Of a stretch of DNA of 64,000 nt, positions 13,372-42,869 are shown piece after piece. The DNA comes from Elusimicrobiaceae bacterium (GTDB lineage: Bacteria > Elusimicrobiota > Elusimicrobia > Elusimicrobiales > Elusimicrobiaceae). The number at the start of each line of letters is the position of its first letter. The first letter of the stretch is position 1. The notes under the pieces were generated by a model. That model saw only the letters and a list, made by a program, of their open reading frames with translations, did no database searches and was not told the origin of the DNA. A program made the position numbers and the translations under genes. The stretch is taken from positions 62,001 through 126,000 of the forward strand of contig JAFXUJ010000001.1 in assembly GCA_017525025.1 (NCBI GenBank). Direction: 5' to 3'.

Positions 13372-13417
13372 GTACTGCCCAAATTTAAAAACCCACCGAG
13401 AAGGTGGGTTTTTATTT
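13372..13417 (+). repeat. 46-bp direct repeat, copy 2
   Basis: Exact second copy of 13159-13204, including acceptor end ACTGCCCA and the hairpin terminator. Confidence 0.9.
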
Positions 13418-13446: not shown

Positions 13447-14595
13447 TTAGCGCTCTGTATCAATGAGAAGTTTTGGGGAGGAAACTTCCCCGGAAGAAAC
13501 GTTTATGTCGTAGGAAAAAATAGCGGTAGCGTCCACAAATTGCGGGAAAATAGTTACGCGCAATATGTCATTATCTTCCAATTCAAAAAATTGTTCTAAA
13601 TGTTCCGGATCGGTAAATTCTTCGGCTTGTACGGTTTGTTTTACCTCTCCGTTGCGGATCAATGCTACGGAAAGCAAGGCATCTCCCGGTGGTAATACGC
13701 TTACGGGACGGCCCAATACTTTTATTACAAGGCCTTCGTTTCGTGTATCTTGCCCTAACAGATTGTGTACAAGCGGCAAGATGTTTTCAATCGGTGTAGC
13801 CACGTATAACGGCGGCAAAGACTGAATAGAAAAATCCGAAAGGAGCGGAACGTCCAACTTGGGTGAAAAAACCTTGTACGGAAAAGATCTTACATATAAT
13901 CCGGCTACTTTACCATTTATCATAACGGGAGAACCGCACATCCCTTTGTTTGATCTTCTAAAATTGTTACGAATCATCAAGCGGTATGAACTGGCAAATA
14001 AAATCTCCTCTTGTGGAAACCAGCGCGGTTGACCGAAAGCAAACCCGGCAATGGAGACCAGTTGCGTGGGTTTTGCGCGCTCGGTAGCAATAGGGAGGGG
14101 TTGCACATAATTACGGACGCTTGCCGGAATTTCAAAAACAGCCACATCCGTTCCCATTACATTACTCGTCTCCCACGAAGTAATTTTTTCGGCGCGGTAG
14201 CCTTGCGGAGTTTGAAAATACATATAAGGATCTCTGGATATGTTGTCCATCACGTGCGCGGCGGTTGCCCCGAAAAGTTTTCCTTGTACTTCAATAGCAA
14301 AGGCAGACGCCGTAATATCGGATTGAGGAGATTGTTGGACCTGAAAAACAATCGGCTTTTCGCCGGGAGGCAAGGTTTCGCGGACGGGCACTTCTGCCGC
14401 CCACGCGGGCCGTAACATATTTACGAAACGTTCTTTAAGAAGAAGATTGCTTTGCCTGGATAACGAGGAAACGGCTCCGGGCTTGAATAATCGTTTAGCC
14501 AATGCGTGTTCCACAGCGGATGAAACTTGCGCGTGGGAGAAGCCGGCACAGAAAAATAAAAGCAAAACGGAGTAATTAAAAAGAGACGTTCTCAT
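13447..14595 (-). CDS. Exported chymotrypsin-fold protease homologue with predicted Cys nucleophile
   Basis: 382 residues with a signal peptide ending near SHA-QV (residue 22). A trypsin-like layout is visible: His114 in GATAAHVMDN, Asp150 in GTDVAVFEI, and the nucleophile loop KGMCGSPVMINGKVAGLY, where Cys220 aligns with the Ser of HtrA/trypsin GNSGGP. Ser222 is the only nearby alternative nucleophile. About 60 residues at the C-terminus form an extra beta-rich region with no PDZ signature I recognise. A paralogue lies at 40979-42166 with the same triad. TTGCCG-17-TACAAT sits 7 nt before the ATG, suggesting a leaderless mRNA. Fold call is fairly sure, Cys catalysis is inference. Confidence 0.72.
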   Translation of the reverse strand: MRTSLFNYSVLLLFFCAGFSHAQVSSAVEHALAKRLFKPGAVSSLSRQSNLLLKERFVNMLRPAWAAEVPVRETLPPGEKPIVFQVQQSPQSDITASAFAIEVQGKLFGATAAHVMDNISRDPYMYFQTPQGYRAEKITSWETSNVMGTDVAVFEIPASVRNYVQPLPIATERAKPTQLVSIAGFAFGQPRWFPQEEILFASSYRLMIRNNFRRSNKGMCGSPVMINGKVAGLYVRSFPYKVFSPKLDVPLLSDFSIQSLPPLYVATPIENILPLVHNLLGQDTRNEGLVIKVLGRPVSVLPPGDALLSVALIRNGEVKQTVQAEEFTDPEHLEQFFELEDNDILRVTIFPQFVDATAIFSYDINVSSGEVSSPKLLIDTER

Positions 14596-14635: not shown

Positions 14636-14664
14636 CAAAAGGCCCAGTAACTACTGGGCCCTTT
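14636..14664 (-). terminator. Terminator of glyA
   Basis: The minus strand carries GGCCCAGTA/TACTGGGCC followed by TTTTGA, 13 bp after the glyA stop. Confidence 0.75.
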
Positions 14665-14676
14665 GGGGAAGTGGAA

Positions 14677-15924
14677 TTATTTTAACATCTCATACAAAGG
14701 GAAGTGTTGCAAGAAAATTTTTACTTGCCTCGCAATCTCTGCCAAATAATTTTCATCTCCTCTGTGAGTAAGTGCGTCGTCAATAAATGCGGCGATTTGC
14801 TCCATATCTTTTTCTTTCATGCCGCGGGTGGTAACGGCCGGGGTGCCAAGGCGCAGCCCGCTGGTTACAAACGGTTTTTCCGGATCAAACGGAATTGTAT
14901 TTTTGTTGGCAGTAATGCCGGCTTTATCCAAAGCCGCTTCGGCTACTTTTCCCGTCATGTTTTTAGAGCGCAAATCTACGCACATCACATGCGAGTCCGT
15001 ACCGCCGGCTACAAGTCGGTAACCGCGCGCTTTTAACGCGTCTGCAAGTGCGGCCGCATTTAATTTAACTTGATGTTGATAGACCTTAAATTCCGGCTTT
15101 AATGCTTCGCCCAAACAAACGGCTTTGGCGGCAATAACGTGCATTAAAGGTCCGCCTTGTACGCCGGGGAAAACAGCGGAATCGATGGCTTTTGCTAAAT
15201 TTTCTTTGCACAAGATGAGCCCGCCGCGCGGCCCGCGTAATGTTTTATGCGTGGTAGTAGTTACCACGTCGGCATACGGAACCGGAGAGGGATATTCTCC
15301 GGCGGCAATGAGTCCTGCATAATGTGCTACGTCGCACGCTAAATATGCTCCGCAACTATCGGCAATTTCGCGAAGGCGCTTCCAATCAAACACGCGCGAG
15401 TAATTGGACGCGCCTGCTAAAATGAGTTTCGGTTTGTGCTCTTTGGCAAGTGCGGCCGCTTCGTCATAATCAATTTCTTCGGTATCTTTACGCACGTTCA
15501 TGGCAACCATATTGTAAAGTTTGCCGGAAAAATTCAGCGGGTGCCCATGCGTCAAGTGGCCGCCGTGGGAAAGGTTTAATCCAAGGACGGTGTCCCCGGG
15601 TTTTAATAATGCAAAATAAACCGCCATATTGGCTTGCGCGCCGGAATGAGGCTGTACGTTGGCATGCTCGGCCCCGAATAACTTTTTGGCACGTTCTTGC
15701 GCCAATTTCTCTACGATATCTACAAATTCACATCCGCCGTAATAGCGTTTGGCCGGGTAGCCTTCAGCATATTTATTGGTGAGTACGGAGCCCTGTGCTT
15801 CCATGACGGAAAGTGAAGTAAAATTTTCGGAGGCGATCAGTTCAATGCGTTCGCGTTGGCGGGCCAATTCTTGGGCTATGGCGTTAAAAACTTCGGTATC
15901 TGTTTTTTGTAAATTCGGGTACAT
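14677..15924 (-). CDS. glyA: Serine hydroxymethyltransferase
   Basis: PLP enzyme interconverting serine and glycine and charging tetrahydrofolate with a one-carbon unit. The PLP-lysine motif [13 protein letters not shown] is near residue 225, with the N-terminal SENFTS and [12 protein letters not shown] segments that form the active site. 415 residues, the usual length. AGGA lies before the ATG. Single gene, ending at its own terminator, divergent from the deoxyhypusine-synthase-like gene. Confidence 0.97.
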
Positions 15925-36497: not shown

Positions 36498-37034
36498 ATG
36501 ATTATATCCAATACATCTATTTCTTACCGTTTGCGTTCCGGTTTTACACTTATTGAATTATTGGTGGTGGTTCTTATCATCGGTATTTTGGCTTCTATTG
36601 CTTTACCGCAGTATCGGGTGGCAGTTGCCAAAGCCAGATATGTGCAAGCCATGGCTGTAGGAGATAAAATGTGGTTGGCGCAACAAGAGTATTTTTTAGC
36701 AAGCAACCAATGGGCCGAAAATTGGGACGATCTAACTATTTCTCCGCCTGCGGGTTATACCCACATAAATCCGGAACATACGCAATTGTGGTATCCTTGG
36801 GGAACATGCTGGTTTTCTCCGTCTCCGAACATGCCCGACGCATTAAAAGAAATGAACTGTACCATCCTGGGGGGCGCTCTGTGTTTTTTGCGGGCTTATC
36901 ATGGCAAGAGAAGGTATTGTCGCGTTTATTATAATCAATCCCAAGCGGATGTAGCGGAAAAGATATGCAAGTCTATGGGGACCTTTAACAACGAAAACGC
37001 TAGCCTAGGGTATAGGCAGTATATTATCCGGTAA
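36498..37034 (+). CDS. Type IV pilin-like protein
   Basis: 178 residues. A leader of 15 residues ends in Arg-Ser-Gly, cut before FTLIELLVVVLIIGILASI (mature Phe+1, Glu+5). The globular part is Trp/Tyr-rich with four or more cysteines (GTCWFSP, NCTILGGALCF, YCRVYYNQ, ICKSMG), probably disulphides. Its helix is nearly identical to those of the other three pilins here, but the globular domains differ. Stands alone; no assembly genes nearby. Major pilin, minor pilin or pseudopilin cannot be told apart. Confidence 0.82.
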   Translation: MIISNTSISYRLRSGFTLIELLVVVLIIGILASIALPQYRVAVAKARYVQAMAVGDKMWLAQQEYFLASNQWAENWDDLTISPPAGYTHINPEHTQLWYPWGTCWFSPSPNMPDALKEMNCTILGGALCFLRAYHGKRRYCRVYYNQSQADVAEKICKSMGTFNNENASLGYRQYIIR

Positions 37035-40978: not shown

Positions 40979-42166
40979 TTAAGGCGTTTCCCGCCGGGTT
41001 ACTTGGCCGGTGGATACGTTTACTTCGTACAAGAACGCCGCATCGTGTTCGGCAGTGTATGTTTTGGTGAAAATAACCAACCGCAAGATATCGTTTTCTT
41101 GCAATTCAAATAAATTTTCCAAGTGTTCGGAGTCCAGTAAATCGCCGGGCGAGATTTTGTCTACCGGGGTTCCGTTTCGTACCAATTGAACGAAAGCCAG
41201 GGATTCTTCCGGTTGTAAAAATGCCACGATGTTGCCAAACAATTTAAGCGCAAGCCCCGGGGCTTGTTTTTCCCCGGTTAGCCTGTTAACCAACGGAAGA
41301 ATGTTGTTAATGGGCGCGGCCCGGTGCAGTAACGGAGAGTTGAGATTGGCCGGAATTTCTTTAGGAAAGTGCATCCACAAAAAATTTTCTTGCCCGGTCA
41401 AATGAGCCCCCGTGTATAAACCGATTACTTTTCCGTTTGCCATAATCGGCGAGCCACATAGTCCGTTGATATTTTCCGAAAACGAATTGCGCAGCAGTAG
41501 CAGGAAGGGGGTTGAAAATAAAATTTCCTCGTTGGAAAGCAATAACGGGCGGTCTTCGGCAAAGCCGGCAATAGAAACCGTTTGCCATACGGAAACCGGT
41601 TCGACCGAGAAAGGCAAGGGATGCACCCACGGAAGTATTTCGTCCGGAATTTCAAAGACGGAAACATCCGTGCCGTGGGTATTACTTAACTGCCACGAAA
41701 CGATATCTTGCGATACAAGAGCCCCGTCCGGGGCTTGAATTTGCATTTGGGGTGGGGGATAGGTTGAATCCATGTACAGACCGCGTGCTTCCAACTCGGC
41801 TATGTTTTTGCGGGCATCCATTTGTGCGATACTGCGCATGACGTGCCCGGCCGTTACCCCGAAGACCTTTCCATTTACTTCTATGGCAAAGGCAGAGGCA
41901 TTGGCTTGCGGTACGCCCGGGCGGTGTACACGAAAAGTTGTTTGCGGAAACACGTTTTGAGCCGTCAGCGGCTCGGTACGTGGAGGTTCAAAGAGGTTTA
42001 ATATACGGTTGAGCCATTGTTCCTTGGCCGCCCGCGACAAAACCTCCACCCCTTGCCGGGCGGTTATCCCTTTGATTACGGCACGTTGTAACTCTTGGGC
42101 GTTAATAACGCCGGGACAAAGCAAAAAGTACAACGCCGCCCAAAACCCCATATAAACTTGTTTCAT
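40979..42166 (-). CDS. Exported chymotrypsin-fold protease homologue with predicted Cys nucleophile (paralogue)
   Basis: 395 residues with a signal peptide ending VINA-QE (residue 23). Triad positions: His108 in GVTAGHVMRS, Asp167 in HGTDVSVFEIPDE, Cys237 in NGLCGSPIMANGKVIGLY. It shares this layout, spacing and a similar beta-rich C-terminal region (LENLFELQENDILRLVIF versus LEQFFELEDNDILRVTIF) with the protein at 13447-14595, so the two are paralogues 26 kb apart. TACAAT lies 7 nt before the ATG, again leaderless. Substrate unknown; Ser239 could be an alternative nucleophile. Confidence 0.72.
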   Translation of the reverse strand: MKQVYMGFWAALYFLLCPGVINAQELQRAVIKGITARQGVEVLSRAAKEQWLNRILNLFEPPRTEPLTAQNVFPQTTFRVHRPGVPQANASAFAIEVNGKVFGVTAGHVMRSIAQMDARKNIAELEARGLYMDSTYPPPQMQIQAPDGALVSQDIVSWQLSNTHGTDVSVFEIPDEILPWVHPLPFSVEPVSVWQTVSIAGFAEDRPLLLSNEEILFSTPFLLLLRNSFSENINGLCGSPIMANGKVIGLYTGAHLTGQENFLWMHFPKEIPANLNSPLLHRAAPINNILPLVNRLTGEKQAPGLALKLFGNIVAFLQPEESLAFVQLVRNGTPVDKISPGDLLDSEHLENLFELQENDILRLVIFTKTYTAEHDAAFLYEVNVSTGQVTRRETP

Positions 42167-42329: not shown

Positions 42330-42869
42330 ATGAAAAATAAAATCAGTTGTCATAAAGGGTTTACGCTCATAGAACTTTTGGTAGTGGTGTTAATTATTGG
42401 TATTTTAGCGAGTGTTGCTTTGCCGCAATACCAAAAAGCGGTACAAAAATCGCGATTGGCACAATTAGATACCATGATAGATGCGGCTCGCAAAAATGTA
42501 GAGCTATACTTGCTGGCCAATGGGCATCCTTCTTCCGGTCTTGTTAAGTTGACGGGACGGGATAGCGTGTCTGACTTTAACATGCCCGGGGATTGCTCGC
42601 ATGAGAATTACTGTATACTGGGAGATGAAAATGATATATTAGTGGAGGTTTATCCTGACTATGTAGAAATTCTAGTGCATTGGGAAAGGCGTTCCATGCG
42701 TTTTGCCCTGGTGCGGCCTGCGAACACAAGAGAGTGGCATGTTGGCGATGCAGCACACGTAAATCAAGTGATTTGTCAGTGGTTTAGAGATAGACATTAT
42801 TCGGGGAGTTCCCAAGTGGTCGCGGACTGTGCGGAAGTTGGAATTTCCGTTTCTGCGCATGCCGGTTAG
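42330..42869 (+). CDS. Type IV pilin-like protein
   Basis: 179 residues. Leader MKNKISCHKG, then FTLIELLVVVLIIGILASV with the mature Phe+1 and Glu+5. The globular part has CSHENYC and further cysteines near the C-terminus (VICQWF, VADCAEVG). Nearest in its N-terminal 35 residues to the 4947 pilin (VALPQYQK). Monocistronic with promoter and terminator. Confidence 0.85.
   Translation: MKNKISCHKGFTLIELLVVVLIIGILASVALPQYQKAVQKSRLAQLDTMIDAARKNVELYLLANGHPSSGLVKLTGRDSVSDFNMPGDCSHENYCILGDENDILVEVYPDYVEILVHWERRSMRFALVRPANTREWHVGDAAHVNQVICQWFRDRHYSGSSQVVADCAEVGISVSAHAG

Follow-up and report, generated by a model that had tools for sequence, protein, structure and literature searches.

A bacterial family of predicted exported PA-clan proteins with cysteine at the nucleophile position in Elusimicrobiaceae

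The 64,000-nucleotide stretch of Elusimicrobiaceae DNA analysed here (the window) encodes a protein that is likely to belong to a family of exported PA-clan cysteine endopeptidases of bacterial descent, for which we infer catalysis, location, the direction of the Ser/Cys switch and substrates. The wider proposal, which we hold in even balance, is that this is the first expanded cellular exported PA-clan cysteine peptidase family, in which one natural Ser-to-Cys switch in Elusimicrobiaceae was followed by radiation into many paralogues, most of them with a pocket of the Glu/Gln type, and Ser-type cousins persist both in sister lineages and in the window's own genome. The initial annotation of the gene had suggested a family of exported cysteine proteases in bacteria, with a His/Asp/Cys triad, and this is supported by the residues, their conservation, the predicted fold, the alignment with serine proteases and the expansion of the family. 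The family varies a known fold and mechanism.

Gene, protein and predicted fold

The open reading frame was confirmed exactly as first annotated, and lies on the minus strand, which had not been named before (Table 1). Reading of the codons also showed that the numbering of His114, Asp150, Cys220 and Ser222 was correct. The gene is preceded on the same strand by a gene (14677-15924) that we take from its sequence to be glyA. At the glyA-adjacent site in the record of an uncultured Elusimicrobium (L007, isolate RUG540), three tandem protease copies were found. By eye, hairpins flank the protease gene (13387-13413 and about 14643-14666), which suggests that it is transcribed alone; they were absent from the output of the terminator scan. 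Two plus-strand genes elsewhere in the window (36498-37034 and 42330-42869) carry a type IV pilin N-terminal motif and are presumably pilin-like.

Table 1. Features of the protease gene and the second family member in the window (rows refer to alignment A2)
Feature	Position	Strand	Basis
CDS, 382 aa, exported PA-clan His/Asp/Cys protein (export predicted)	13447..14595	minus	ORF reading and model
Predicted Sec signal peptide, residues 1-22, probable cleavage after Ala22	14530..14595	minus	hydrophobic core, A-Q junction
Chymotrypsin-fold protease domain, residues 68-285	13741..14394	minus	model residues 68-281 vs SplA
His114, putative catalytic base	14254..14256	minus	130/132 rows
Asp150, putative third triad member	14146..14148	minus	Asp 120/132, Asn 11, Ala 1
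Cys220, predicted nucleophile, in GMCGSP	13936..13938	minus	129/132 rows; aligns on catalytic serines
Ser222 codon	13930..13932	minus	
C-terminal all-beta accessory domain, residues 286-382	13450..13740	minus	model pLDDT 88.8
Second family member, 395 aa, GLCGSP	40979..42166	minus	39% identical to the 13447-14595 protein

From their sequences, the proteins are predicted to be exported via a Sec leader. A simple leader rule (hydrophobic core and AxA) was passed by 127 of 132 relatives, and position 22 was Ala in 119 of the 132 rows of the family alignment (A2). A lipoprotein was considered and rejected: a simple pattern found a lipobox-like sequence in 11/132, and that of the window protein was unconvincing by eye.

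AlphaFold2, run on A2, gave a confident two-barrel fold (mean pLDDT 91.0, pTM 0.87), which together with the fold search upheld the chymotrypsin fold proposed initially. Among the best structural matches listed by VIA-align, where Z values within 1 count as ties, were SplA (Z 19.8, rmsd 2.7, 176 residues), DegS (Z 19.4, rmsd 3.1, 176 residues), V8 (Z 19.2, rmsd 3.2, 185 residues) and an astrovirus serine protease (Z 19.0, rmsd 2.5, 155 residues). The 50 structural matches listed had Z values of 18.6-19.8 over 155-194 residues, placing the model in the PA-clan two-barrel fold. In a Foldseek comparison with viral models, most matches were serine proteases from barna- and sobemo-like viruses.

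At the level of profiles, A2 matched V8 (2.2e-7) and constructs of plant Deg2/Deg9 (1.5e-9), whose catalytic serine lined up with its Cys column. Alignment of A1 by hhalign with L109, a Ser-type protein from the same genome (E 4.1e-9), again paired Cys220 with serine. The window protein scored 18.6 bits with Pfam Trypsin_2 (PF13365; cut-off 27.6), and relatives scored up to 51.9 bits, several paralogues being above the cut-off. The second family member in the window had no Trypsin_2 match in Pfam, the NCBIfam search of the window protein gave no match, and phmmer with the single window protein against PDB gave chance matches only.

The C-terminal domain had no confident counterpart among PDB folds (Foldseek E 0.17 at best, highest Z 4.7), and each Pfam family matched it in at most 1 of 80 members. 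The PDZ domain of HtrA (S1C) was likewise not matched in the C-terminal domain of the window protein, and PDZ_2 was found in 1/80 members (E 0.031).

Active site and substrate pocket

The His/Asp/Cys arrangement reported for this protein is conserved beyond chance. Within A2, His114 was kept in 130 and Cys220 in 129 of the 132 rows (exceptions W, A and H), in a sample biased by the HMM that gathered it, which was built from Cys members. Residues at the position of the cysteine in homologues, a point raised in the initial annotation, are therefore not random. Position 150 was Asp in 120 rows, Asn in 11 and Ala in 1; the oxyanion glycine, Gly218, which is the equivalent of position 193, was present in 131/131, and Gly221 in 131 rows of this 132-row alignment. 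Both rows without His114 belong to the three without Cys220, a coincidence with a chance of 3/8646 by our own arithmetic if rows are independent. Triad and oxyanion Gly were near invariant among rows down to 12-16% identity. Of 176 domain matches, duplicates and fragments included, 135 were His/Asp/Cys (HDC), 11 His/Asn/Cys (HNC) and 5 His/Asp/Ser (HDS), the remainder being partial or degenerate. The serine nucleophile in GxSGG or GxSGS that characterises MEROPS S1 is absent, with Cys in 129/132 and zero Ser in the column.

Ser222 was ruled out as the nucleophile, since it is replaceable among homologues (S 98, G 27, A 5 and C 2 of 132). A structural disulfide or metal role for Cys220 was rejected as well. 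Besides C220, the window protein has one cysteine, the leader residue C16, so that the mature protein has no second; 75 of the 132 A2 members likewise have no other mature cysteine, which speaks against both roles. Some members may be dead, given the 11 rows with Asn for Asp and the three without Cys. The Asn150 proteins (e.g. L036:2676-3896 and L029:2679-3872) possibly have changed chemistry or specificity; Glu was found at position 234 in 9 of 10 HNC rows, marking a distinct subgroup.

Position 234, which by our own mapping we take to be chymotrypsin number 213, aligned with the S1 histidine in the V8-type match. It was His in 87, Tyr in 14, Phe in 14 and Glu in 12 of the 132 A2 rows, and His234 occurred together with Ser237 in 81. 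An S1 His is common to Glu-specific and 3C-type proteases according to PMC5508998, and many members are therefore predicted to cut after Glu/Gln. The window's own protein is one of the less typical members. It has Tyr234, and so lacks the His at chymotrypsin-213 of glutamyl endopeptidases (S1B), and Arg236 where 129/132 rows have Gly; its specificity is therefore probably unusual. In an arterivirus protease, the same source reports, a His-to-Tyr change halted processing (PMC5508998).

Distribution and descent

The family is expanded in one genus of Elusimicrobiaceae. The genome of the window (G000, 1.55 Mb in 17 contigs) holds 12 paralogues at E <= 1e-3; for 11 the E value is 4e-43 or lower, and five are consecutive at C9:1358-7034. 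All 12 carry Cys in GxCG (11 in A2, and L019 by eye), and the same genome also holds the ordinary Ser-type proteins L109 and L113. Matches were found in 61 of 340 genomes of the phylum: 44 in the window's genus, 3 in genus g2, 12 in genus g5, which belongs to the same family (Elusimicrobiaceae), and 2 elsewhere. When 16 genomes of the window's genus were scanned in full, each gave 1 to 28 matches, many of the weak ones covering the leader alone; three genomes (G025, G020 and G054) had no strong member.

The g5 matches that were readable at the nucleophile were Ser-type, and Cys versions occurred in g2 and in a genome of another family (G296). Outside the phylum the search consisted of one genome_contigs scan with the single window protein, which found one relative, and bacterial Cys versions elsewhere are possible. 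Plasmid spread was searched for by tblastn with the relative L096:3487-4692, which gave no match. Giant open frames in a related genus contain the domain several times within 1,077 to >5,000 aa; the giant frames of genus g5 carry Ser versions. Two large frames in a related genus are L099 1757-13660 (G078; 3,968 aa), with three readable PA-type Cys domains, and L100 (G079, minus strand; >5,200 aa), with several. A second expanded exported family was seen in L122 2784-15342 (G074:C19), as nine consecutive ORFs of about 430-500 aa; the two tested gave borderline ChaN/Tiki (Cofac_haem_bdg) matches, and the leader region resembles the protease-family leader (weak N-terminal matches).

In an unrooted 53-row tree, all 9 Ser rows lay to the same side of one branch (support 94/87); several rows have long branches, and a warning accompanied the joining of two of these. 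A single Ser/Cys change suffices for this tree, and the Ser-type relatives lie within the same family. One clade for all Cys rows had p-AU 0.052, though the test placed the nested Trp row outside. Judging by the HtrA-like rows and the Ser state of cellular PA proteases, Ser was probably the ancestral state. The best reading is a bacterial origin of the family, separate from that of viral 3C. The key catalytic atom thus appears to have been swapped by nature within a bacterial lineage.

Proposed function, alternatives and related systems

We propose that the Sec leader would export the protein from the cytoplasm. Asp150 would then position His114, which would activate the Cys220 thiol for attack on the scissile carbonyl, with an oxyanion hole formed by the Gly218-Cys220 backbone, and water would release the acyl-enzyme. 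The small C-terminal beta domain would be accessory. The family would have arisen from bacterial HtrA/V8-like serine proteases by one Ser-to-Cys switch in Elusimicrobiaceae and then multiplied in tandem arrays, its substrate pockets diverging. In anoxic guts, its members probably act on proteins at the cell surface or beyond it, digesting or processing them.

An active protease with a narrow role in self-processing or regulation, acting on its own leader or on neighbouring surface proteins and not in digestion, is possible but we think it unlikely. The repetition of the domain inside frames of 1,077 to >5,000 aa, as might be seen in a polyprotein processor, points this way, as does the presence, in most members, of the S1 His known from Glu/Gln-specific processing proteases. 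However, in the window's genus nearly every copy is a short gene of its own that encodes its own leader. Related genomes also differ in copy number, and with three genomes lacking a strong match the role would not be universal. Still less probable is a pseudoprotease in which the fold was kept for exported binding or chaperoning and the Cys/His pair took on another task, as in MamO. That bacterial trypsin-2 protein is a precedent for a non-serine residue at the nucleophile position, and is described in PMC4794232 as metal-binding, with a degenerate triad and Gly193 lost. Close to the substrate cleft, residues 234 and 236 of the window protein are changed, and a few members lack His and/or Cys. 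Unlike MamO, the family keeps its triad and has Gly218 in 131/131, and its lone thiol would make a poor metal site. The lost activity that the initial annotation had allowed for is disfavoured for the family, as triad and Gly218 are kept across very divergent paralogues.

The same annotation had likened the protein to viral 3C proteases, a likeness that holds for the chemistry and fails for nearest kinship, the closest relatives found being bacterial and plant serine proteases. Capture of a virus-derived 3C-type protease by a bacterium would account for the Cys nucleophile, GxCGS and the S1-His pattern, and relatives weakly matched Pfam C3 and S32, below threshold. On the other hand, the serine proteases Deg of plants and V8/Htr of bacteria are the best profile relatives, Ser-type relatives exist in the same family, and no relative was found in viral_contigs or phages, which may cover RNA viruses incompletely. 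We rejected a viral origin on the profile relatives, the tree and these empty searches, and consider it highly improbable. No C3 family was among the Pfam matches of the window protein, those of relatives being below the cut-off, and the gene lies in a 1.55-Mb bacterial genome adjoining the presumed glyA.

The reading we prefer, exported cysteine endopeptidases of bacterial descent, can be set beside known systems. With Deg/HtrA (S1C) and V8/Spl (S1B) the family shares the two-barrel fold, the His/Asp positions, the oxyanion Gly and profile similarity; it differs in having Cys for Ser, no recognisable PDZ and its own C-terminal beta domain. Viral 3C/3C-like proteases (MEROPS C3, C4, C30 and others) have in common with it the Cys nucleophile in the PA fold and, in most members, the S1 His of Glu/Gln-specific enzymes, but the family is cellular, predicted to be exported and arranged in chromosomal paralogue arrays. 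The definition of 3C/3C-like proteases in PMC6524800, a PA fold that has His and Cys and optionally Asp/Glu, describes the residues found here. A cellular precedent has been claimed: mammalian peroxisomal Deg-type Tysnd1 is a trypsin-domain protease characterised by its authors as a cysteine endopeptidase (PMC3573110). Unlike the exported expanded family, Tysnd1 is an intracellular single gene.

In the open-licence literature we found no description of the family, nor of an Elusimicrobium with a cysteine protease. Reviews assign all nine PA-clan families with cysteine to positive-strand RNA viruses (PMC6524800), and a directed-evolution study states that cellular PA-clan proteases use serine and that a nucleophile switch typically costs >10^4-fold, with few mutations able to restore activity (PMC4576821). 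If our reading is true, a fixed, triad-preserving Cys in bacteria would be a cellular counter-example to the serine-only view. It would also offer a naturally occurring replicate of this nucleophile switch, in which the Ser-type relatives could show which other residues had to change. The family may in addition supply thiol proteases of varied specificity from anaerobes.
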